Positions 1 through 37,266 of a stretch of DNA of 39,257 nucleotides are shown one piece after another. Positions within the stretch are counted from its first letter, which is position 1. The number at the start of each line of letters is the position of its first letter. The DNA lies in NCBI RefSeq assembly GCF_026241095.1, contig NZ_JAPFGB010000045.1, forward strand, positions 1 through 39,257, read 5' to 3'. Source of the DNA: Saccharopolyspora sp. NFXS83 (GTDB taxonomy: Bacteria > Actinomycetota > Actinomycetes > Mycobacteriales > Pseudonocardiaceae). The notes below the pieces were generated by a model. It was not told where the DNA came from. It made no database searches and saw only the letters and a program-made list of their open reading frames with translations. A program made the translations under genes and the position numbers.

Positions 1-175
1 CTGCCACAACGACTTCCTTCCTCGGTCTGCACGAGCAGACCAGACTCGGAAGCCTCCGGACAAACGGGGGAAGCTCAGGTTCTCAGCTGTCTTCTCGCGA
101 GGACAGCTTTTTCCCTCGTGGCGCAGCCACTAGGGAAAAAGATCCCGCAGCGAGAAGACAGCTGAGGTTCCGCCA
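1..175. repeat. Dispersed nested-hairpin element, copy A
   Basis: This is an intergenic copy of an element also seen near 18763, 24805 and 37168. The outer stem TCAGCTGTCTTCTCGC (83-98) pairs perfectly over 16 bp with 150-165. The inner hairpin (108-122 with 126-140) pairs TTTTTCCC with GGGAAAAA and GTGGC with GCCAC around a 3-nt loop, with one mismatch. The copy ends with the shared CTGAGGTTCCGCC motif (162-174). An alternative stem, AGCTGTC (85-91) with GACAGCT (102-108), would exclude the outer stem. The left boundary is uncertain because similarity fades toward the window edge. No open frame or transposase is present. Confidence 0.75.
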
Positions 176-219
176 AACGACCACCAAAACAAAACGAGCC
201 CGACCCCCCCAAACAACAA

Positions 220-17879: not shown

Positions 17880-18719
17880 GTGGCCGACTACATCGAGATC
17901 CCCACCCCCGCAGGCACCTTCGACGCGCTGAGCGCGGGCGACGAGGGCGACCGGCCGGTGCTGCTCCTGCACGGGTTCCCGCAAGCCGCCATCGAGTGGC
18001 GGGAGCAGCTCGCGGTGCTCGGCGGTGCCGGATGCCACGCGGTGGCCCCTGATCAGCGCGGCTACTCCCCCGGCGTGCGCCCCACCGAGGTCGCCGACTA
18101 CCGGATGGAGGAGCTGGTCTCCGACGTGCTCGCGATCGCGGACCAGCTCGGCTGGTCGCGGTTCGACCTGGTCGGCCACGACTGGGGCGCCGCCGTCGCG
18201 TGGTCGGTCGCGGCGGCCCACCCGGACCGCGTCAAGTCGCTCACCGCGGTCTCCGTCCCGCACCTGGACGCCTTCGCCCGCGCCCTGCGCGAGGACGAGG
18301 ACCAGCAGCGGCGCTCCGAGTACATGCAGGTGTTCCGCCGGTCCGGCTCCGACAAGCTGCTGCTGGAGGACGGGGCGCGGCGGCTGCGGCGGATGTACGA
18401 GCACAAGATCCCCGAGCACCACGTCGAGGAGTACGTGCAGCGGTTCAGCGAGCCGGGCGCGCTGGACGCCGCGCTGAACTGGTACCGCGCGTCGAAGCTC
18501 ACCGAAGCCATCGGCCCGATCCAGGTGCCGACACTCTACGTGTGGAGCACCGACGACGGCGCCCTCGGCTCGACCGCCGCGCTGGCCACCGGCAACCACG
18601 TCACCGCCGACTACCGCTTCGAGATGATCGAAGACGTCTCCCACTGGGTACCGGAACAGGCCTCGGAAGACCTGACCCGAGTCCTCCTGGAACACCTCAT
18701 CGCCCACCAGGACGCCTGA
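17880..18719 (+). CDS. Alpha/beta hydrolase, epoxide hydrolase-like
   Basis: A 279-residue soluble alpha/beta hydrolase. The oxyanion motif HGFPQ (31-35) and the nucleophile elbow GHDWGA with Asp101 instead of Ser place it with epoxide hydrolases and haloalkane dehalogenases. The second acid is probably in WSTDDGAL and the catalytic histidine in DVSHWVPEQ. A lid region lies between about 130 and 220. The PDQRGYSPG segment and GHDWGA are more typical of epoxide hydrolases than dehalogenases. The start is GTG 17880, 31 bp after the epimerase. No signal peptide is present and the natural substrate is unknown. Confidence 0.82.
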   Translation: MADYIEIPTPAGTFDALSAGDEGDRPVLLLHGFPQAAIEWREQLAVLGGAGCHAVAPDQRGYSPGVRPTEVADYRMEELVSDVLAIADQLGWSRFDLVGHDWGAAVAWSVAAAHPDRVKSLTAVSVPHLDAFARALREDEDQQRRSEYMQVFRRSGSDKLLLEDGARRLRRMYEHKIPEHHVEEYVQRFSEPGALDAALNWYRASKLTEAIGPIQVPTLYVWSTDDGALGSTAALATGNHVTADYRFEMIEDVSHWVPEQASEDLTRVLLEHLIAHQDA

Positions 18720-18762
18720 GGATCACAGCGCGCGGATCCCGCCCACTGATCTTTCGGTCGTT

Positions 18763-18926
18763 GTCCTGTCAGCGGCGGAGCCGCTGCGCGGTGACCAGCT
18801 CGAGCAGGGTGACCACCGGCGGGTTCGCAACGGCTTCCCCGCGAGGACAGCGATCTCGCCGTGCCTCGGACGTACGTCAGAAATCGATCCCGCAGCGAGG
18901 AAGCCGCTGAGGTTCCGCCACCCGGA
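18763..18926. repeat. Dispersed nested-hairpin element, copy B
   Basis: It starts with GTCCTGTCAGCGGC-GGA-GCCGCTG (a 7-bp hairpin, 18770-18786), as copy C does. The outer stem CGGCTTCCCCGC (18831-18842) pairs with 18895-18906 at 11 of 12 positions. It ends CCGCTGAGGTTCCGCCACCC. The inner loop differs from copies A and C and carries GACGTACGTC instead. It lies between the convergent epoxide-hydrolase and acetyltransferase genes, with its conserved end 26 nt past the acetyltransferase stop. Confidence 0.75.
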
Positions 18927-18949
18927 CACCTGCGCAGGCACAACTCTCC

Positions 18950-19480
18950 TCAGTCCAGGTCCCCCGGACGAATGCGGTAGACGTGCAAGGTGCGGTCGTA
19001 GTACTTGGTGGTCTCCCCCACCCATTCCATGCCCAGCCGCTGCGCCGTGCGATGGGCGCGATCGTTGAGCGGGTCGACGACCGCGAACAGCTCCACGGCC
19101 TCGTGCGCGAACGCCCAGCGGATCAGTTCCCGCGTCGCTTCCTTCGCGTAGCCCTGGCCCCACGAGTTGGGGCGCAGGTGCCAGGCGACCTCCACGTCTT
19201 CGAAGCGCGGAGGTAGGAGCCGCAGCTCGGCGCCGCCGATGACCGCACCGCTCCCGCGGTGTTCGAACGCCCACCGGCCCAGCGGCGGCGGCAGCTCGCG
19301 CTGCTCCTCGATCCACTGGGACAGCAACCGCCGCATCGCGGCCAGGTCAGCGACGCTCGGCATCGAGGGCACCAGCCAGTCGGTGACCGTGGCGGTGCCG
19401 TACACGGCGAACGCGTCGTCGACGTCGTCGGGACTCCACTCCCGCAGCACGACTCGCTCGGTGACCGGCATCGGGACCAT
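18950..19480 (-). CDS. GNAT-family N-acetyltransferase (RimJ/RimL-like)
   Basis: A 176-residue single-domain acetyltransferase. The N-terminal beta strand TERVVLREWSPDDVDDAF is typical of the RimJ/RimL group. The acetyl-CoA loop is in LRPNSWGQGYAKEATRELIRWAF (Q/RxxGxG/A form), followed by the DPLNDRAHRTAQRLGMEWVGE segment with the conserved Asn of the family. The substrate, a protein N-terminus or a small molecule, cannot be determined. ATG 19480 has no strong ribosome site, and a second ATG three codons later is equally possible. Confidence 0.85.
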   Translation of the reverse strand: MVPMPVTERVVLREWSPDDVDDAFAVYGTATVTDWLVPSMPSVADLAAMRRLLSQWIEEQRELPPPLGRWAFEHRGSGAVIGGAELRLLPPRFEDVEVAWHLRPNSWGQGYAKEATRELIRWAFAHEAVELFAVVDPLNDRAHRTAQRLGMEWVGETTKYYDRTLHVYRIRPGDLD

Positions 19481-19739
19481 GGGGAAACGTTAGCCGCCGC
19501 CGGGGCCGGTGGCAGATTGGATGTTCCCGGCCTCCCTCCCGCACTCGACGGCGGCGAGAAGGTGCGCCGTCCCGGTCGCCTCATGCGTCCCGGTGGTGCG
19601 CACCGGCCGGGTTGCGCCGCACGGACCAGGCCCGTTCGAGCGTTCCCGGCGAGTATGCGACAGCTTCGCCCCGATCGTTGACCGCTGATCGAGCGCGGGC
19701 CGAGACTTCCCGGCGGATGCCGAGAACCCTGGAGGGCCG

Positions 19740-20717
19740 ATGCGCCGTCGCCGTTCCGTTCCGCTGCTGGCCGCCGCGGCCGTGCTGCTCGCTACGGCGG
19801 GCCCGGCCACCGCGGCGCCCCCGGCCGCGACGGGGACCCTCGACTACCTGCGGGCCGTGTCCGGCACGAACACCATCAGCGGGCAGCACAACAAGGAACC
19901 GCTGTCGAACCCGACGCGCTGGACGCAGCAGGTCCACGACATCACGGGGGACTACCCGGGGCTGTGGGGCGGGGACCTGCTGTTCTCCGAGGCCGATGTG
20001 CGCGACCGGCAGAACCTGGTCGACGAGGCGATCAACCAGTGGAACAACGGCGCGCTGGTCAGCCTCACCTGGCACGTGTGCCCGCCGACTCAGGGATCGT
20101 CGTGCACGTGGGACGACGGGGTGCGGGCCGAGCTCTCCGACGAGCAGTGGCGGGAGCTCATCACCGACGGCACGCCGCTCAACCAGGCGTGGAAGGCCCG
20201 GCTGGACGAAGCGGTCCCGTACCTGCGCCAGCTGCAGGACGCCGGGGTGCAGGTGCTGTGGCGTCCGCTGCACGAGATCAACGACGGCTGGTCCTGGTGG
20301 GGCGGGCGCCCCGGACCCGAGGGCAGCGCCGCGCTGTACCGGATCACCCACGAGCACCTGACCGGGCAGGGCCTGACGAGCCTGGTGTGGAACTGGAACG
20401 TGAAGGACTCCGACATCAGCGACCTGGGCTCGTACCGGCCCGCGGACGAGCAGGTGGACGTGGCCTCGATCGACATCTGGGAGAAGGCCGCCCCCACCGA
20501 CGCCGACTACCAGGCCATGCTCGCGGTGGCGGGAGACCGGCCGATCGCGCTCGGCGAGGTCGGCACCACTCCCACTCCGGAACTGCTCGACGCCCAGCCG
20601 CTGTGGACGTACTTCATGCTGTGGGCGGAGTACCTCGACGACCACGACCCGGCGGAGCTCCAGCGCACCTACTGGGACGACCGGGTCCTTGTCCTCGACG
20701 AGATGAGCCGCGGCTGA
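19740..20717 (+). CDS. Exported beta-mannanase, glycoside hydrolase family 26
   Basis: Endo-1,4-beta-mannanase that would cut mannan or galactomannan outside the cell. The 325-residue protein has a Sec signal (RRRR, a hydrophobic core, ATAAP near 26) and a single GH26 barrel without carbohydrate-binding modules. Visible motifs are ISGQHNKEP, WGGDLLFSEADVR, the acid/base E179 in RPLHEIND followed by WSWWGG, VWNWN, and the nucleophile E273 in ALGEVGT. ATG 19740 follows GGAGG with a 5-nt spacer. The exported GH2 and epimerase genes 3-5 kb upstream could act on the same galactomannan, but they are not in one operon with it. Confidence 0.9.
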   Translation: MRRRRSVPLLAAAAVLLATAGPATAAPPAATGTLDYLRAVSGTNTISGQHNKEPLSNPTRWTQQVHDITGDYPGLWGGDLLFSEADVRDRQNLVDEAINQWNNGALVSLTWHVCPPTQGSSCTWDDGVRAELSDEQWRELITDGTPLNQAWKARLDEAVPYLRQLQDAGVQVLWRPLHEINDGWSWWGGRPGPEGSAALYRITHEHLTGQGLTSLVWNWNVKDSDISDLGSYRPADEQVDVASIDIWEKAAPTDADYQAMLAVAGDRPIALGEVGTTPTPELLDAQPLWTYFMLWAEYLDDHDPAELQRTYWDDRVLVLDEMSRG

Positions 20718-20723
20718 CGGCGG

Positions 20724-20898
20724 AAAGGCCCGGAGCTGCTGCGCTGGCAGTTCGAACCGACCTGGTCGTTGTTCGAGCACCCCCTGGAAGCGGATGGCGG
20801 ACGCCGACTTCCGGGAGGAGTCCGCACCGCACTGCTGGACGCTGCGCTCGAGCGCCGGAGGCGGCTGGACGCCGGCGCCCGTCCCCGGGCTCGCCGTG
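20724..20898 (+). pseudogene. Frameshifted remnant of a DinB-family gene
   Basis: Two frames together read like the start of a DinB/maleylpyruvate-isomerase-like protein. Frame one (from about 20733) gives ELLRWQFEPTWSLFEHPLE. After a frame change, 20794-20896 gives MADADFREESAPHCWTLRS, then an SAGGGWTPAPVPGLAV segment. Family members typically read LLRWQFELTWSLFEYHL, then DADFLWEPAAHCWTVR, then VP, as I recall. There is no further domain after 20898, so the gene is both frameshifted and truncated. Assignment rests on recalled similarity. Confidence 0.5.
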
Positions 20899-20899
20899 A

Positions 20900-21994
20900 T
20901 CAGGTGTCGTAGTCGACGGTGACTTCGTCGGTGACGGGCAGGGATTGGCAGGTGAGCACGAATCCAGCGTCCACTTCGGACTGTTCGAGGGCGAAGTTGC
21001 GGCGCATCACGACTTCGCCGGAGGTGACCTGGGCTCGGCAGGTGCCGCAGACGCCGCCCTTGCAGGCGAACGGCAGGTCGGGACGGGACCGCTGAGCTCC
21101 GTCGAGCACCGGGACGTCGCGCGGCAGCGACAGCGTGCTGGTGCGGCCGTCGAGCACCACGGTCACGTCGCTGCGCGCACCGGTCGGTGGGGCGTCCTCC
21201 GGCCGGATCGGGTTCGGCGGCGGCTCGTCGACGTAGAACAGCTCCTGGTGCACCTGCTCGCGGGCGACGCCGAGCCCGGTGAGCACGTCCTGCGCGGCGG
21301 TGACCATGCCGTACGGACCGCACAGCCACCAGTGCGCCTCCCCGTCCACCGGGATCAGCACGCCCAGCAGCGCTTTCAGCTTCGCCGCGTCGAGGCGCCC
21401 GGACACCAGCTCCGACTCGCGCGGTTCGCGGGAGAGCACGTGCACCAGGTCCAGCCGGGCCGGGTAGCGGTCCTTGAGGTCGGCGAGCTCGTCGGCGAAC
21501 ATCACCGTGTCGCTGCGCCGGTTCCCGTACACCAAGGTCACGTCCCCGCCGCTCTCCCGCAGCACGCTCGCCGCGATCGAGAGCACCGGTGTGATGCCGG
21601 AACCCGCCGCGATCAGCACGTGCCTGCCGGTCGCGCTCAGGTCGGGGGTGAACGATCCGGACGGCGGCGCCACGTCGATCAGATCGCCGGGGCGCACCTC
21701 GTCCACCAGCCAGGCGGAGAACAGCCCGTCCGGCACCAGCCGCACCCCGATGCGGGGACGCTCCCCCACCGGCGCGCAGATCGAGTAGGAGCGGCGGTGC
21801 TCGCCGTCGGCTCCGACGCGGCGCAGCGTGAGCGACTGGCCGGGGCGGAACGCGAACTCGGCGGCGAGTTCTGCGGGCACGTCGAAGGTGACGGCGACCG
21901 CGTCCTCGCACAGCCGGTCCACCGCGGCCACCCGCAGCGGGTGGAAACCGGTGCCGCGGCGCGAAGTCACCGGCCCGTCCATCGTGGAAGTCAC
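20900..21994 (-). CDS. paaE: Phenylacetyl-CoA epoxidase, NADPH reductase subunit
   Basis: Passes electrons from NADPH through FAD and a 2Fe-2S centre to the diiron subunit PaaA. The 364-residue protein has an N-terminal FAD domain (RRSYSICAP), a nucleotide-binding domain (LIAAGSGITPVLSIAASVL) and a C-terminal plant-type ferredoxin domain with cysteines in ACKGGVCGTC and LTCQSLP. This is the PaaE layout. I chose GTG 21994, which follows AAGGAG and lies 2 nt past the paaD stop; ATG 21982 is an alternative. It is the last gene of the paaABCDE operon. Confidence 0.95.
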   Translation of the reverse strand: MTSTMDGPVTSRRGTGFHPLRVAAVDRLCEDAVAVTFDVPAELAAEFAFRPGQSLTLRRVGADGEHRRSYSICAPVGERPRIGVRLVPDGLFSAWLVDEVRPGDLIDVAPPSGSFTPDLSATGRHVLIAAGSGITPVLSIAASVLRESGGDVTLVYGNRRSDTVMFADELADLKDRYPARLDLVHVLSREPRESELVSGRLDAAKLKALLGVLIPVDGEAHWWLCGPYGMVTAAQDVLTGLGVAREQVHQELFYVDEPPPNPIRPEDAPPTGARSDVTVVLDGRTSTLSLPRDVPVLDGAQRSRPDLPFACKGGVCGTCRAQVTSGEVVMRRNFALEQSEVDAGFVLTCQSLPVTDEVTVDYDT

Positions 21995-21996
21995 CG

Positions 21997-22506
21997 TCAG
22001 ATCTCCTTGACGTGCTCGAAGGGTTCGGCGCAGTCGGTGCAGCGCCGCAGCGCCTTGCAGGCGGTGGCGCTGAACCGCGACAACTCCTCGGTGCGCGGCG
22101 AACCGCAGCGGGGGCAGCTGACCCGAGCCCGCGGCGGCTCCAGCCGAAGCGGCACCGGGCCGCCGCGGGGCGGTGCGGCGCCCGGTGGGGCGATGCCGTG
22201 CTCGGCGAGCCTGCGCCGCCCGCGCGCGCTGATCCAGTCGGTGGTCCACGGCGGGTCCAGCGCCGTGCGCACCCGCACGTGCTCGAACCCGCCCGCGGTG
22301 AGGCCGCGGTGCACGTCGGCGCGCATCTCGGCCATCGCCGGGCATCCCGAGTACGTCGGGGTGAGCGTCACGACGACGGTGCCATCGCCGGCGATCTCGA
22401 CGCCGCGCAGCACACCCAGGTCCGCCAGGGTGAGCATCGGCAGCTCGGGGTCGGTCACCGCCTCGGCGATCTCCCGGGCGCGGGGCAGTCCGGTCGCGGT
22501 CGTCAC
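21997..22506 (-). CDS. paaD: Phenylacetyl-CoA epoxidase accessory subunit PaaD
   Basis: Iron-sulfur/metal maturation factor needed for the epoxidase (SufT/MIP18-like domain). The N-terminal half carries AREIAEAVTDPELPMLTLAD and TPTYSGCPAM, and the C-terminal half has a four-cysteine ribbon, SCPRCGSP ... CKALRRCTDC. The 169-residue length fits the family. The start GTG 22506 overlaps the paaC stop by 4 bp (GTGA), indicating translational coupling. Confidence 0.94.
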   Translation of the reverse strand: MTTATGLPRAREIAEAVTDPELPMLTLADLGVLRGVEIAGDGTVVVTLTPTYSGCPAMAEMRADVHRGLTAGGFEHVRVRTALDPPWTTDWISARGRRRLAEHGIAPPGAAPPRGGPVPLRLEPPRARVSCPRCGSPRTEELSRFSATACKALRRCTDCAEPFEHVKEI

Positions 22507-23375
22507 CACGTCGCCTCCGGGTGCGCGCGGGCGACGCCCTGGAGTTCCGCGAGCAGCGGGGCGAGGTGCGCGGTGTGCTCGCCGACGCGCCCGGACACCT
22601 CGGCGGCGGGAGCGATCGGCGGGGCGTCCACTGTGGCCGCCGAGCACACCTGCTCCAGCACGGCCGCCACCTCCTCCAGCGTCGCGGCGGGGTCCACGCC
22701 GACGCCCTGCGCGGTCGCGTCGCGTTCGATGCCGCCGGCGGCGAACAGTTCCGGCAGGAAGGGCCGCACCTGGTCGATCCCGGCCCGCATCCGGCGATGC
22801 GATTCGGCGGTCCCGTCGCCGAGCCGCACCACCCACTGCGCCGCGTAGTCGCGGTGGTAGGCGAGTTCCTTGCCGCCCTTCACCGCGATCGCGGCCAGCA
22901 CCGGATCCTTCGACGACGCCAGCCGGGTGAACAGCGCCAGCCGCCAGCTCGACAGCACCAGCAACCGCGCCACCGTCTCCGCGAAGTCGCCGTGCGGCGG
23001 CTCGACCAGCCGCACGTTGCGGAACTCGTGGGCGTCGCGGAAGTACGCCAGCTCGTCCTCGCCGCGCACCGACTCCCCCGTCCGCCCGGCGCGCGCCAGC
23101 AGCAACCGCGCCTGGCCGAGCAGGTCGAGCGCGATGTTCGCCAGCGCCACCTCGTCCTCCAGCTCCGGCGCGCGGGTGACCCACTCGGCGAGCCGCTGCG
23201 AAGCGATCAGCGCGTCGTCGGCGAGCATCAGGCAGTACCCGGACAGCACGGCCGCGTCGACTCCCGGTGGCACGGCGGTGTCCACCCCGGCCAGCGGATC
23301 GTCGAATCCGGTGCCGAACGCCCACCGCGCGTCGTTCTGCTCGGTGAGCGCCTCGTAGGCGTTGTCGAAGGACAT
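22503..23375 (-). CDS. paaC: Phenylacetyl-CoA epoxidase structural subunit PaaC
   Basis: Ferritin-like partner that holds PaaA in the active heterodimer; family members are not thought to keep a working diiron centre. The 290-residue protein shows the PaaC pattern: YCLMLADDALIASQRLAEW, ALANIALDLLGQARLLL, EFRNVRLVEPPHGDFAETVAR and GGKELAYHRDYAAQWVVRLGDGT. ATG 23375 begins 7 nt after the paaB stop. The end overlaps paaD. Confidence 0.95.
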   Translation of the reverse strand: MSFDNAYEALTEQNDARWAFGTGFDDPLAGVDTAVPPGVDAAVLSGYCLMLADDALIASQRLAEWVTRAPELEDEVALANIALDLLGQARLLLARAGRTGESVRGEDELAYFRDAHEFRNVRLVEPPHGDFAETVARLLVLSSWRLALFTRLASSKDPVLAAIAVKGGKELAYHRDYAAQWVVRLGDGTAESHRRMRAGIDQVRPFLPELFAAGGIERDATAQGVGVDPAATLEEVAAVLEQVCSAATVDAPPIAPAAEVSGRVGEHTAHLAPLLAELQGVARAHPEATW

Positions 23376-23382
23376 GGCGGCC

Positions 23383-23685
23383 TCACATGTGCGGGACGTC
23401 GTCGGGAATGTCGTAGAACGTGGGGTGCCGGTAGACCTTGTCGCCGCTGGGCGCGAAGAACGGGTCCTTCTCGTCCGGGCTCGACGCGGTGATCGCGGCG
23501 GCCGGCACCACCCAGATGCTCACGCCCTCGTTGCGGCGGGTGTAGAGGTTCCTGGCGTTGTGCAACGCCATCCGCTCGTCCGCGGCGTGCAGCGAACCGA
23601 CGTGCACGTGGTTGAGGCCGCGCTTGCCGCGCACGAAGACCTCGTACAGCGGCCAGCTCGACCGCGCCTGCTGCTCGTCGCTCAT
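23383..23685 (-). CDS. paaB: Phenylacetyl-CoA epoxidase subunit PaaB
   Basis: Small bridging subunit of the PaaABCE complex. At 100 residues it matches the PaaB pattern [45 protein letters not shown] and a C-terminal [16 protein letters not shown] 23685 overlaps the paaA stop (ATGA), so translation is coupled. Confidence 0.95.
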
Positions 23686-24641
23686 GCCGTCGCCTCCTCC
23701 CGTGCGGCCCGCTTCGCGGCGTGCGCCGCGGCGGCCTCCCGCACCCATTCACCCTGCTCGTGAGCGGACTTGCGGCGTTCCACGCGCTCGGCGTTGCACG
23801 CGCCCTCGCCGCTGATGACGCGCTTGAGCTCCGCCCAGTCCGGCTCGCCGAAGTCGTGCATGCCGCGTTCCGCGTTCCAGCGCAGCTCCGGGTCGGGCAG
23901 CGAGACGCCGAGCGCGTCGGCCTGCGGCACGGTCATGTCCACAAACTTCTGCCGCAGCTCGTCGTTGGTGTGGCGCTTGACCTTCCAGGCCATCGACTGC
24001 CGCGTGTTCGGCGAATCCCCGTCGGGCGGGCCGAACATCATCAGCGACGGCCACCACCAGCGGTCCACCGCGTCGCGCACCATGTCCCGCTGCGCCTCGG
24101 TGCCGCGCATCATCGTGAGCAGCAGTTCGTAGCCCTGCCGCTGGTGGAACGACTCCTCCTTGCAGATCCGCACCATCGCCCGCGCGTAGGGCCCGTAGGA
24201 GCTGCGGCACAGCGGCACCTGGTTGCAGATCGCGGCCCCGTCGACGAGCCAGCCGATGACGCCGATGTCGGCGAAGTTCAACGTCGGGTAGTTGAAGATC
24301 GACGAGTACTTCTGCCGCCCCGAGATCAGCTTCGCGGTGAGGTCGGCGCGGTCGGCGCCCAGCGTCTCCGCCGCCGAGTACAGGTAGAGCCCGTGGCCCG
24401 CCTCGTCCTGCACCTTCGCCAGCAGGATCGCCTTGCGCCGCAACGAGGGCGCCCGCGCGATCCAGGCGCCTTCGGGCTGCATCCCGATGATCTCGGAGTG
24501 GGCGTGCTGAGCGACCTGGCGCACCAGGGTCTTTCGGTAGCCCTCGGGCATCCAGTCCCGCGGTTCGATCCGCTGGTCCCGTTCGATCGTCTCCTCGAAG
24601 GCCCGCTCCGGCGTCGTCACCTCCACCGCGCTGCTCGCCAC
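23682..24641 (-). CDS. paaA: Phenylacetyl-CoA epoxidase catalytic diiron subunit
   Basis: Forms the 1,2-epoxide of phenylacetyl-CoA. Diiron ligands are visible in the ferritin-like pairs [10 protein letters not shown] and [15 protein letters not shown]. Other PaaA signatures are [52 protein letters not shown] and the [13 protein letters not shown] loop. I chose GTG 24641 (319 residues), preceded by GGAGG with 8 nt spacing. The longer ATG at 24695 would begin inside the operator palindrome 24687-24705, leaving no room for a promoter. It is the first gene of paaABCDE. Confidence 0.93.
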
Positions 24642-24686
24642 GTGCGCCACCTCCACCTCTCCGTCCCGATCCCGAACCCGATCCGA

Positions 24687-24705
24687 ACCGACCATTCGGT
24701 CAGTA
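24687..24705. promoter_or_regulatory. Probable PaaR operator in front of paaABCDE
   Basis: ACCGACCATTCGGTCAGTA matches the site at 27149-27167 at 17 of 19 positions. The core is the inverted repeat ACCGA-N4-TCGGT. On the minus strand ACTGACCG-N6-CGGT resembles the palindrome reported for corynebacterial PaaR. It lies 46 bp before the preferred paaA start. Confidence 0.75.
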
Positions 24706-24804
24706 AATTTTCCCGCGCGGTCGGCCGAAAAGCAAGGCGTCCGCCCGTCTTGCCAGCGCGGCCCCGCAGAGCCCGTCCTCGGACTCGCAGACCGTCGTTC
24801 GTCC

Positions 24805-24965
24805 GTGTCCTGTCAGCGGCGAAGCCGCTGAGCAGCGACCACCAGAGCAACCGGCACCGCCGCGGGTTCTCAGCGGTTTCCTCGCGAGGACGGCTTTTCC
24901 CTCGTGGCGGAGCCACCAGGGAAAAAGATCCCGCAGCGAGGAAACCGCTGAGGTTCCGCCACCCG
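24805..24965. repeat. Dispersed nested-hairpin element, copy C
   Basis: This is the best-preserved copy. CAGCGGC-GAA-GCCGCTG (24814-24830) is followed by the outer stem TCAGCGGTTTCCTCGC (24870-24885), perfectly complementary to 24936-24951. The inner hairpin is 24895-24908 with 24912-24925 (one mismatch). It ends CTGAGGTTCCGCCACCC, 33 nt past the paaZ stop. TCCTCGCGAGGA inside the left arm is itself a 12-bp palindrome. It separates paaZ from the paaA promoter. Confidence 0.8.
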
Positions 24966-24996
24966 CCCCCATCGCGCGAAGAGCGGGAAACACGCC

Positions 24997-27045
24997 TCAC
25001 CCGGTCTGCTTGGCGACCAGGGTGAGCACGTCGTACTTCGCCACGGAGGCCCCGTCCTGGTTCGTGACGTCGGCGTCCCAGCGGACCTCGCCGTAGTCGG
25101 CGTTCTGGCGCGGGGTGATCTGCTTCGCCGTCAGGGTCACCGTGATCTCGTCACCGGGATAGGTGGGTGTGAGGAACCGCAGGTTCTCCAGCCCGTAGTT
25201 CGCCAGCACCGGTCCGGGTTCGGGCGAGACGAACAGCCCGGCCGCGAACGACACCACCAGGTACCCGTGCGCTACCTTGCCCGCGAAGAACGGGTTGGCG
25301 CGGGCCGCTTCCTCGTCGGTGTGCGCGTAGAAGGTGTCGCCGGTGAACTCGGCGAAGTGCGCCACGTCCTGCTCGGTCACGGTGCGCGGGCCCGCCACCA
25401 CGGTGTCCCCGGCGCGCAGCTGTTCCAGGTGCTTGCGGAACGGGTGCTCGTCGGTGGCGGTGCGCTCGCTGCCGGGGACCCACTGGCCGGTGATGGCGGT
25501 GAGGGTCTGCGGGTCGCCCTGCACCGCGGTGCGCTGCATGTGGTGCAGCACGCTGCGGATCCCGCCGAGCTCCTCGCCGCCGCCCGCGCGACCGGGGCCG
25601 CCGTGGACCAGCTGCGGCAGCGGCGAGCCGTGCCCGGTGGATTCGGCGGCGTCGTGCCGGTTGAGCACGAGCAGCCGCCCGTGCCGGGAGGCGGCGCCGA
25701 GCACCACGTCGCGGGCGAACTCGGCGTCGGCGGTCACGACCGAGCCGACCAGGCTGCCCTTGCCCAGGCGGGCGAGGTGCACGGCGTGCTCCGTGTCGTC
25801 GTAGGGCAGCAGCGTGCTGACCGGCCCGAACGCCTCCACCTCGTGCGGCTGGGGCTGCTCGGGGTCATCGCAGCGCAGCAGGATCGGCCCGAGGAAGGCC
25901 CCGCGTTCGGCATCGGCGCCGACCGGCTCCACCGAGTCCGGGTCGCCGTGCACGACGCGCGCGACCTCCAGCAGCGACTTCAGCGAGCGCCGCACTTCCT
26001 CCCGCTGGTCCAGGCCCGCCAGCGCGCCCATCCGCACGCCGTCGGCGCCGGGCGCTCCGACGGTGATCTCCGCCAGCTTCGCCGAGACCGCCGCGGCCAC
26101 CTCGTCGATGCGCGGCGCGGGCACCAGCGCCCGGCGGATCGCGGTGCACTTCTGCCCCGCCTTCACGGTCATCTCGGTGACGAGCTGGTCGACGAACAGG
26201 TCGAACTCGGGAGTTCCCGGCTTCGCGTCCGGGCCGAGGATCGAGCAGTTCAGCGAGTCCGCCTCGGCGTTGAACCGCACCGAGTTCGCCACCACCGCCG
26301 GATGCGCGCGCAGCCGCTGCGCGGTGGCGGCCGAACCGGTGAACGACACCAGGTCCTGGTCGGTGACGTGGTCGAGCAGATTGCCCGCACCGCCGCAGAC
26401 CAGCTGCACGGACCCTTCCGGCAGCAGCCCGGATTCGACGATGAGCTCGACCAGCCGGTGGGTCAGGTACGCCGTGCGGCTGCCCGGTTTGATCAGGCTC
26501 GGCACCCCGGCCAGGAAGGCGGGCGCGAACTTCTCCAACGGTCCCCACACCGGGAAGTTGAACGCGTTGATCTGCACCGCGACGCCCTGCAGCGAGGTGC
26601 ACAGGTGCTGGGCGACGAAGGTCCCGCCCTTGCCCAGCGGCTCCACGGCGCCGTCGAGGTATGCGGTGCCGTCGGGCAGTTCCCGGCGGCCCTTGCTGGA
26701 GTAGGTGAACAGCACGCCGATGCCGCCGTCCACGTCGAACTTCGAGTCGCCGCGCGTCGCACCCGTGCGCGCGGACAGCGCGTAGAGCTCCTCGCGGTGC
26801 TCCCGGAGGTACGACGCGAGCGATTTGAGCAGCGCCGCCCGCTGGTGGAAGGTCAGCGCCCGCAGCGCGGCACCGCCGACGCGGCGGCCGTGGTCGAGCG
26901 CGGCCCCCATGTCGATGCCCGCCGAGGAGATCCGCGCGACCGGTTCCCCGGTGACCGCGTCCGGCAGCACCACTCCCTCGTCGGCCGGGGAGTGCCATCG
27001 TCCTTGCACGAAACTGGGCAGAACCTGCACTGGCGCGCTGCTCAT
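24997..27045 (-). CDS. paaZ: Bifunctional oxepin-CoA hydrolase / 3-oxo-5,6-dehydrosuberyl-CoA semialdehyde dehydrogenase
   Basis: Opens the oxepin-CoA ring and oxidises the resulting aldehyde in phenylacetate breakdown. The 682 residues equal the E. coli PaaZ length. The N-terminal aldehyde dehydrogenase domain (1 to about 520) shows INAFNFPVWGPLEKFAPA, SFTGSAATAQ, the glutamate segment RFNAEADSLN and the catalytic cysteine in KAGQKCTAIRRA. The C-terminal MaoC hydratase (about 540-682) shows FAEFTGDTFYAHTDEEAA, with the expected Asp and His, and GKVAHGYLVVSFAAG. ATG 27045 follows GAGGAGG; an upstream GTG would add 58 non-homologous residues. It is transcribed from its own promoter, divergent from paaIKR. 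Confidence 0.95.
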   Translation of the reverse strand: MSSAPVQVLPSFVQGRWHSPADEGVVLPDAVTGEPVARISSAGIDMGAALDHGRRVGGAALRALTFHQRAALLKSLASYLREHREELYALSARTGATRGDSKFDVDGGIGVLFTYSSKGRRELPDGTAYLDGAVEPLGKGGTFVAQHLCTSLQGVAVQINAFNFPVWGPLEKFAPAFLAGVPSLIKPGSRTAYLTHRLVELIVESGLLPEGSVQLVCGGAGNLLDHVTDQDLVSFTGSAATAQRLRAHPAVVANSVRFNAEADSLNCSILGPDAKPGTPEFDLFVDQLVTEMTVKAGQKCTAIRRALVPAPRIDEVAAAVSAKLAEITVGAPGADGVRMGALAGLDQREEVRRSLKSLLEVARVVHGDPDSVEPVGADAERGAFLGPILLRCDDPEQPQPHEVEAFGPVSTLLPYDDTEHAVHLARLGKGSLVGSVVTADAEFARDVVLGAASRHGRLLVLNRHDAAESTGHGSPLPQLVHGGPGRAGGGEELGGIRSVLHHMQRTAVQGDPQTLTAITGQWVPGSERTATDEHPFRKHLEQLRAGDTVVAGPRTVTEQDVAHFAEFTGDTFYAHTDEEAARANPFFAGKVAHGYLVVSFAAGLFVSPEPGPVLANYGLENLRFLTPTYPGDEITVTLTAKQITPRQNADYGEVRWDADVTNQDGASVAKYDVLTLVAKQTG

Positions 27046-36481: not shown

Positions 36482-37137
36482 TCCGGGTACTCGTCGTCGA
36501 GGACGACTTCCGCGTGGCGCAGGTGCACGCCGAGTTCACCGACCGCGTGCGCGGCTTCCGCACCGTCGGCATCGCGCACTCCGCGGCCGAAGCGCGCGAC
36601 CTCATCGCCGAGCACCGGCCCGAACTGGTCCTGCTGGACAACTACCTGCCGGACGGGCCCGGCATCGCACTGCTCGCCGAACTCGACATCGACACCATCA
36701 TGCTCACCGCCGCGTCCGACCCCGCGTCGGTGCGCGCCGCGCTCGCCGCCGGAGCGTTGAACTACCTGGTGAAGCCGTTCACCGCCCACCAGCTCAAGGA
36801 CCGGCTCACCGCCTACGCGCACTACCGGTCCCGGCTGCCCGCCACCGACGGCACCGTCGACCAGGAGGAGATCGACCGGGCCATGCGGTCGCTGCGGGAA
36901 GGCGACCGACCCGGTTCGCCCAAGGGCCAGTCCAGCATCACCACGAAGCTGATCACCGACGCGCTGCGCGCCGCCGCCGCACCGCGATCCGCCTCCGAGG
37001 TCGCCGACGAGCTCGGCATCGCCCGCGCCACCGCGCAGCGCTACCTCGCCGGACTCGCCCAGGACGGCAAGGTGACGATGACCCTTCGCTACGGAGCCAG
37101 CGGACGGCCTGAGCACCAGTACGAACTCGACGGCTGA
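36478..37137 (+). CDS. Response regulator, CitB/DcuR family
   Basis: Partner of the upstream kinase, 219 residues long. The receiver (1 to about 120) has an intact pocket: VEDD at residues 7-10, phospho-acceptor Asp in LVLLDNYLPDGPG, and Lys in YLVKPF. The C-terminal domain has the CitB-type HTH (SASEVADELGIARATAQRYLAGLAQDGKV ... GRPEHQYEL). The start overlaps the kinase stop (ATGA). The most likely target is the divergent citM promoter at 34661-34861. Confidence 0.94.
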   Translation: MIRVLVVEDDFRVAQVHAEFTDRVRGFRTVGIAHSAAEARDLIAEHRPELVLLDNYLPDGPGIALLAELDIDTIMLTAASDPASVRAALAAGALNYLVKPFTAHQLKDRLTAYAHYRSRLPATDGTVDQEEIDRAMRSLREGDRPGSPKGQSSITTKLITDALRAAAAPRSASEVADELGIARATAQRYLAGLAQDGKVTMTLRYGASGRPEHQYELDG

Positions 37138-37167
37138 CTCCGCGATGAACTCCTCTTGCTCGGAGCC

Positions 37168-37266
37168 GGGTGGCGGAACCTCAGCGGCTCCGCCGCTGAC
37201 GAGGCAGACCAGGAACGCTGCTCACCGGAAGGACGAGATCAAAGACAGGACGTGAGGTTCCGCCGC
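37168..37266. repeat. Dispersed nested-hairpin element, short copy D
   Basis: A short derivative with perfect 12-bp inverted ends, GGCGGAACCTCA (37172-37183) and TGAGGTTCCGCC (37253-37264). Next to the left end is CAGCGGC-TCC-GCCGCTG (37182-37198), the reverse complement of the hairpin in copies B and C. The long stem and inner hairpin are missing. It lies between convergent genes, with its ends about 31 nt and 22 nt past the flanking stop codons. Confidence 0.65.

Follow-up and report, generated by a model that had tools for sequence, protein, structure and literature searches.

Why do copies of one repeat carry outer stems of different sequence and still keep the two arms of each stem complementary? 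The question is raised by a window of 39,257 bases from the 6.9-Mb genome of Saccharopolyspora sp. NFXS83 (the home genome, G000), the window being an entire contig (G000:C40). Three nested-hairpin cores were found in it by cmsearch, at 73-179 (copy A), 18817-18924 (copy B) and 24860-24965 (copy C). A first-pass annotation of this DNA had given 18763-24965 as the coordinates of the feature, an interval that holds the cores of B and C and leaves that of A outside; copy A itself it placed at 1-175. It had described them as a dispersed family with paired stem changes, which were taken to point to selection for a fold. The dispersed family and the paired changes have held up, and selection on the fold of each single copy has not. 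It is rather probable that the family is a small non-autonomous mobile palindrome that works in the manner of the REPIN and ERIC repeats.

Anatomy, spread and conservation of the hairpin

The element is about 175 bases long and extends past a core of about 107 nt. At the base of the core is a GCGG/CCGC clamp, followed by a mismatch (GTT/GTT) and then by the 17-bp outer stem. An asymmetric internal loop, with GAGGACRGC on one side and GATCCCGCA on the other, leads on to an inner stem, which in most aligned copies carries a GTGGC-GGA-GCCAC tip. In copy A the outer arms are CTCAGCTGTCTTCTCGC at 82-98 and its exact complement at 150-166, and in copy C they are CTCAGCGGTTTCCTCGC at 24869-24885 and its exact complement at 24936-24952. 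Copy B has a third version of the outer stem (18826-18842 with 18895-18911). The annotation had all three stems paired, which is true of A and C; in B three of the 17 pairs are broken, as counted from the arms, and B is therefore a decayed copy. Compared with shuffled sequences, the RNA folds of A (z -7.66) and C (z -5.90) are both beyond chance and that of B is unremarkable (z -1.55; 16 of 200 shuffles fold equally well). A small hairpin, TCAGCGGCGRAGCCGCTGM, precedes copies B and C. Copy A lacks this usual 5' hairpin and its basal clamp is unformed. The features of the window are given below.

73-179, plus strand: core hairpin of copy A (cmsearch R1 113.6 bits; RNA fold z -7.66)
18769-18787, plus strand: 5' hairpin of copy B, TCAGCGGC-GGA-GCCGCTGC (sequence, alignment of copies)
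18817-18924, plus strand: core of copy B, ending 26 nt from the stop codon of the minus-strand gene 18950-19480 (cmsearch, context)
24813-24831, plus strand: 5' hairpin of copy C, TCAGCGGC-GAA-GCCGCTGA (sequence, fold)
24860-24965, plus strand: core hairpin of copy C, ending 32 nt from the stop codon of the minus-strand gene 24997-26973 (cmsearch R1 124.2 bits, context)
24869-24885, plus strand: 5' arm of the outer stem (S1) of copy C, the variable segment being its middle 8 bases, 24874-24881
24886-24894, plus strand: 5' side of the internal loop of copy C, nearly invariant, family form GAGGACRGC
24895-24926, plus strand: inner stem (S2) of copy C with the apical GTGGC-GGA-GCCAC hairpin (folds, family pair counts)
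24927-24935, plus strand: 3' side of the internal loop of copy C, nearly invariant, family form GATCCCGCA
24936-24952, plus strand: 3' arm of S1 of copy C, exact complement of the 5' arm
37166-37199, minus strand: short derivative, the element tail fused to one small hairpin, without the core (inverted match, sequence)

In many home-genome copies a row of small GCGAAGC-type hairpins stands in place of the single 5' hairpin. In rows of this kind left of the cores (L066-L095) the stems of the mini-hairpins vary in matched blocks (TATGCGC/GCGCATA, TAAAGCGC/GCGCTTTA and TAATCGC/GCGATTA) and the cores are nearly identical. Six copies lying beside unrelated genes (L067, L068, L074, L075, L090 and L093) have a common right-side extension of about 80-100 nt (GAGCCGTGGAAGC...), which holds another small inverted repeat.

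That A, B and C are copies of one dispersed repeat is confirmed by the home genome, where all 150 scored candidates match the covariance model; since 7549 candidates were present at first look, 150 is a lower bound on the number of copies. All 150 candidates scored in G001 match as well. Fewer copies were found in G004 and G005 (38 and 33 places, opposite-strand hits merged); opposite-strand duplicates were removed from all counts. A survey of 200 genomes of the same bacterial family, with stricter filters and 19 candidates scored per genome, gave matches in 54 genomes and in 13 of 46 genera. Another scan names, among the matches listed, Saccharopolyspora, Saccharomonospora, Halopolyspora and Amycolatopsis rhizosphaerae, and from these genera we take the repeat family to belong to the Pseudonocardiaceae. 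Five home contigs (C14, C20, C21, C35 and C69) have ends that fall inside core copies, and the window (C40) starts 72 bases ahead of copy A. As several contigs start or stop within the core, the repeat probably breaks the assembly.

The fold is conserved across the family. An alignment of 48 cores (A1) was made from 51 references by leaving out L048, which is identical to L035, and L014 and L022, which have damaged arms. In it, standard pairs fill 95.3% of pair cells compared with 85.9% in shuffles, there are 135 double-change cells compared with a shuffled mean of 34.1, and 18 pairs have changes on both sides compared with 10.9, all three counts being uncorrected for the relatedness of the copies. 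The excess of double changes bears out the compensatory stem changes of the first-pass annotation, in a count that leans towards intact stems because L014 and L022 were excluded. Among 97 distinct arm pairs, a mean of 15.8 of the 17 positions are Watson-Crick pairs compared with 12.4 when the arms are shuffled, and 28 of the 97 are perfect. This set was drawn from 171 of 205 unique cores (34 out of register were dropped) and contains distinct sequences only.

The variety is mostly found in the 8 middle pairs of the outer stem. In 82 unique 107-nt cores from the home genome, G001 and G002 the diversity of this segment is 0.344, compared with 0.01-0.04 in the rest of the outer stem and 0.02-0.06 in the sides of the internal loop. 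Short or out-of-register cores were excluded from these values and from the per-site departures discussed below. Among 57 home copies, 40 have a perfectly complementary variable segment, the 5' arm occurring in 21 versions; for G002 the figures are 7 of 13 copies and nine versions. In G001 it is perfectly complementary in 44 of 46 hits, with 15 versions, these hits being mostly the best-scoring copies, biased to intact ones, and including some places fetched twice.

Placement at gene ends and differences between genomes

None of the 148 copies examined in the home genome, G001 and other species overlaps a predicted gene. In the orientation of the first-pass annotation, which is kept here, the right-hand gene is directed towards the element in 47 of 60 home, 24 of 30 G001 and 51 of 58 other-species distinct copies. 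Its stop codon lies 15-45 nt from the end of the core in 38 of 60, 22 of 30 and 41 of 58, respectively. The home sample is 60 places of at least 150, and that of G001 is the 30 best of 150 scored. When sequences of equal length were placed at random between the genes of 400 kb of G001, 3.7% had a stop codon at 15-45 nt. The left gene, when it reads towards the element in home copies, has no fixed distance to its stop codon (76 to 496 nt). Window copies B and C obey the placement rule, at 26 and 32 nt. A plus-strand gene has its end at 37137, and the short derivative starts about 30 nt past its stop codon on that strand, or 33 nt if counted from 37170; the same pattern, run over the window and a 400-kb piece each of G001 and G002, found no further core-less derivatives. 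In G001, 55 of 150 copies lie with the replication fork and 95 against it, the terminus being assumed to lie opposite dnaA. Replication orientation was considered as the driver of placement and is taken as secondary, since its bias is weaker than the gene-oriented one and can be explained by gene orientation.

The first-pass annotation proposed a REP-like or MITE-like (miniature inverted-repeat transposable element) family with no transposase attached, and in keeping with this, the presence of copies differs between genomes and between strains. Site C is filled in the home genome, G001 and G002, which are three close species. The copy is absent from G003, G004, G005, G010, G017 and G018, more distant genomes in which the genes on either side are the same. 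At site B the home genome and G001 carry a copy, and the site is empty in G002. G004 and G005 are near-identical: over 400 kb of the two genomes, the flanks of copies show 99-100% identity in 11 of 12 cases and 94.7% in the remaining one. Of six G004 copies there, four are shared, one is wholly absent from G005 and one is partly missing. Three extra copies in G004 relative to G005 are clean (C29:167390, L190 and L192). Nine G004 candidates were picked for their score difference from G005, and so yield no rate: three are present in G005, two are cleanly absent, one is without the core only, one lies in a rearranged stretch and two were without clear result. In the core-only case (L193, G004:C21:567824, compared with L201) G005 is without the core hairpin alone and has kept both side modules, as expected of hairpin excision. 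Near the place of G004 copy C30:69571, in a rearranged region of G005, there is a seeming transposon insertion inside a gene (L195, G005:C1:4640001-4660000).

How would such a palindrome move? To be copied, a source copy would have to adopt the hairpin fold, either in single-stranded DNA or in a transcript. A putative enzyme would recognize the conserved loops and the GGTTCCGCCACCC foot, and the new copy would be placed with the GGTTCCGCCACCC foot facing the 3' end of a gene; in the gene sense the foot of this family is GGGTGGCGGAACC (reverse complement of the consensus). After insertion each copy would decay neutrally, and template switching or conversion between copies would rewrite both stem arms together. 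Any effect on the neighbouring gene through its 3' untranslated region (UTR) would be secondary.

Several results weigh against a mobile palindrome. No mobilising enzyme was found in searches that covered the Y1_Tnp and RVT_1 families and no others. The annotation had suggested looking for a matching transposase, and none turned up: Y1_Tnp (PF01797) has no match in G000, G001, G002, G003 and G018, all of them copy-rich. It does match in G004 (one), G005 (two), G010 (four pieces) and G017 (one). RVT_1 has no match in G001-G005 and G018, and one in G000. A Y1 transposase was rejected as the mobiliser because it is missing from five copy-rich genomes, and a reverse transcriptase, as for a retroelement like a short interspersed nuclear element, because it is missing from six genomes that carry the element. 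For an autonomous element between inverted copies two cases were looked at, L069 and L018, and the genes enclosed there read as ordinary from their translations; no systematic search for an autonomous parent was made. The placement rule rests on gene calls from a simple codon-usage predictor. It has exceptions: of 60 home copies, 13 deviate from the orientation, and 9 of the 47 correctly oriented ones miss the stop-codon distance, copy A included, whose right-hand minus-strand gene ends 123 nt away. The three clean junctions also differ among themselves. One has a 4-bp CCTA repeat, one has none and one replaces about 22 nt, and the constant target-site duplication expected of a MITE was not found at these three sites. 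At the two junctions without the CCTA repeat the insertion point coincides with the end of the neighbouring gene's reading frame or falls slightly within it, as read from alignments. The differences between G004 and G005 may be gains or losses: an outgroup test of the L192 site recovered a single flank in G003 and, in G017, fragments of that flank.

Could the host instead keep the hairpin as a structured, terminator-like RNA of the 3' UTR that ends or stabilizes the transcript of the gene about 30 nt upstream? The gene-sense strand would then be the reverse complement of the orientation used here. The preferred orientation, the distance to the stop codon and the occurrence in 13 of 46 sampled genera are consistent with such a role. 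The gene-sense RNA of copy C is also lower in energy (-113.9 kcal/mol compared with -99.9 for the other strand), the z values against shuffles being alike (-6.05 and -5.90). In the gene-sense fold of copy C the internal loop is partly paired through G-U, and for the internal loops the hints from the two strands point opposite ways. However, no canonical T-run terminator stands out: a scan of 18600-25200 gave one site of 5 pairs compared with a mean of 1.7 in shuffles. This lone terminator-like site sits inside copy C on the minus strand, and the full hairpin of copy C has no T-run after it. Site C is absent in six relatives sharing the flanking genes, single copies keep their pairing no better than their loops, and the wobble pairs described below lean to the other strand, though not clearly in the home genus. 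A role of this kind is possible but seems unlikely.

Origin of the paired stem changes

Taken one by one, the home copies look neutral. In 53 in-register home copies the departures per site are equal, at about 2.9%, in loops (0.029), fixed stem bases (0.029) and variable stem pairs (0.028, which is half of the pair mismatch rate). The annotation had held that commonly broken stems would speak against a selected fold, and this is partly what is seen, as the 17-bp outer stem is perfect in 30 of the 53. Since pairing is kept no better than unpaired loops, the copies seem to decay neutrally once made, and the paired variety must then arise in source copies or through events that change the two arms together. 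The annotation's selection for a folded form is borne out in part: the fold is conserved across the family (the 95.3% given above), and single copies depart equally at loops and stems.

Both-arm changes are found between genomes. At two of the three sites where both flanks are at least 91% identical, orthologues differ in the variable stem with both arms still matching. These are site C in the home genome and G001, and the pair formed by 263391 of the G001 piece and 260012 of the G002 piece, in which the two arms hold 10 of the 11 core differences. Six copies were compared between G004 and G005: their outer stems agree apart from one base, and in two of them the apical hairpin has changed from TAT..ATA to TAG..CTA as one cluster. 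One pair of copies from G001 and G002, for which the right flank alone serves as anchor, shows an apical loop flipped from GGA to TCC. The base has been converted to a perfect palindrome in 5 of 225 hits, a set that contains some places fetched twice. The matched block rewrites and the loop flip also fit template switching or gene conversion, and passages of PMC8794818 report template switching as a source of compensatory changes in RNA hairpins.

All of these changes are in line with a second alternative, in which palindromes are simply mutable and template switching and gene conversion rewrite both arms with no selection on the fold. The unpaired internal loops and the GTT/GTT mismatch argue against it. 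They are kept across genera and are seldom made complementary, so something conserves the non-palindromic parts. The variable stem of site B is identical in the home genome and G001, and the copy of site C in G002 has a stem that does not fully match, as a change in a single arm would give. Mutability alone leaves the spread and the placement unexplained, and it is quite unlikely to be the answer. In the mobile palindrome proposed above, the same rewriting would be one step among several.

Which strand is folded? In the 97 distinct arm pairs the stem mismatches are 64 G-T and 16 A-C, an excess that would speak for a folded RNA of the strand in the present orientation, and one stem position accounts for 27 of the 64. 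With a slightly looser filter the counts of G-T and A-C are 34 and 20 in the home genus, 38 and 3 in other genera, and 20 and 16 in the inner stem. As a test for the RNA strand the wobble pairs appeared decisive at first, became weak once split by genus and stem, and are not relied on. A functional small RNA in this orientation, antisense to the right-hand gene, would account for the excess of G-T mismatches, but it is very improbable given the one stem position and the weak home-genus and inner-stem counts, the lack of Rfam matches at gathering score in the window (with loose thresholds 24750-25010 yielded 6 matches, at chance level and well short of the gathering scores), and the lack of a promoter-like site by a sigma-70 consensus that is poorly suited to this genome.

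Elsewhere in the window, the interval 20900-24695 holds five predicted minus-strand genes that look like an operon, presumably one for phenylacetate degradation.

Comparison with known systems

Among open-licence PubMed Central (PMC) texts, no title or abstract start was found that describes this repeat family. REPINs are the closest known kind. As described in passages of PMC3116915, they have conserved ends that flank a hairpin, and compensatory changes on both sides of it are common. The present family has the same traits, with conserved parts inverted around a hairpin that changes on both sides, and many copies, which are intergenic like those of REPs. It works like a REPIN, yet the test for a RAYT enzyme was negative. 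It also differs from the REP/RAYT systems in that it is longer, has asymmetric conserved loops, is tied to stop codons in a preferred orientation and is without Y1 in several copy-rich genomes. The word Actinobacteria occurs 0 times in the main text of a REP survey (PMC3733652). Passages of this survey describe CGTC-tagged REPs, which resemble the present family in being palindromic and without a dedicated transposase. Those REPs have 8-9 bp stems and a CGTC tag, whereas the present family is a nested hairpin of about 107 nt.

The ERIC and RU-type palindromes of enterobacteria (127-bp units) are similar in size class, in their intergenic location and in being MITE-like, according to passages of PMC2759123. 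By their descriptions they are set apart by lineage, and by the stop-codon spacing and the variable paired stem segment seen here. ERIC and RU are palindromic and their mobiliser is unclear. In the same bacterial order as the present family, the mycobacterial MIRU elements are small repeats located at gene ends; by description, they are not known to be nested hairpins. Integron attC sites likewise follow stop codons.

Could this be a new mobility system, in which a folded hairpin is recognized by its loops and delivered in one orientation to gene 3' ends, independently of Y1 and reverse transcriptase, with stems rewritten in blocks? We consider this doubtful. With a strain pair that is nearly identical and a strong rule of placement, both the mobiliser and its targeting can be tested directly, and the family offers a natural setting for distinguishing selection on folds from template switching. 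Tight anchoring to stop codons in a preferred orientation and matched block changes within a stem segment are absent from the passages on known families cited above. The present family adds these two features and widens the range of REPIN-like hairpin repeats to include a family of actinomycetes.

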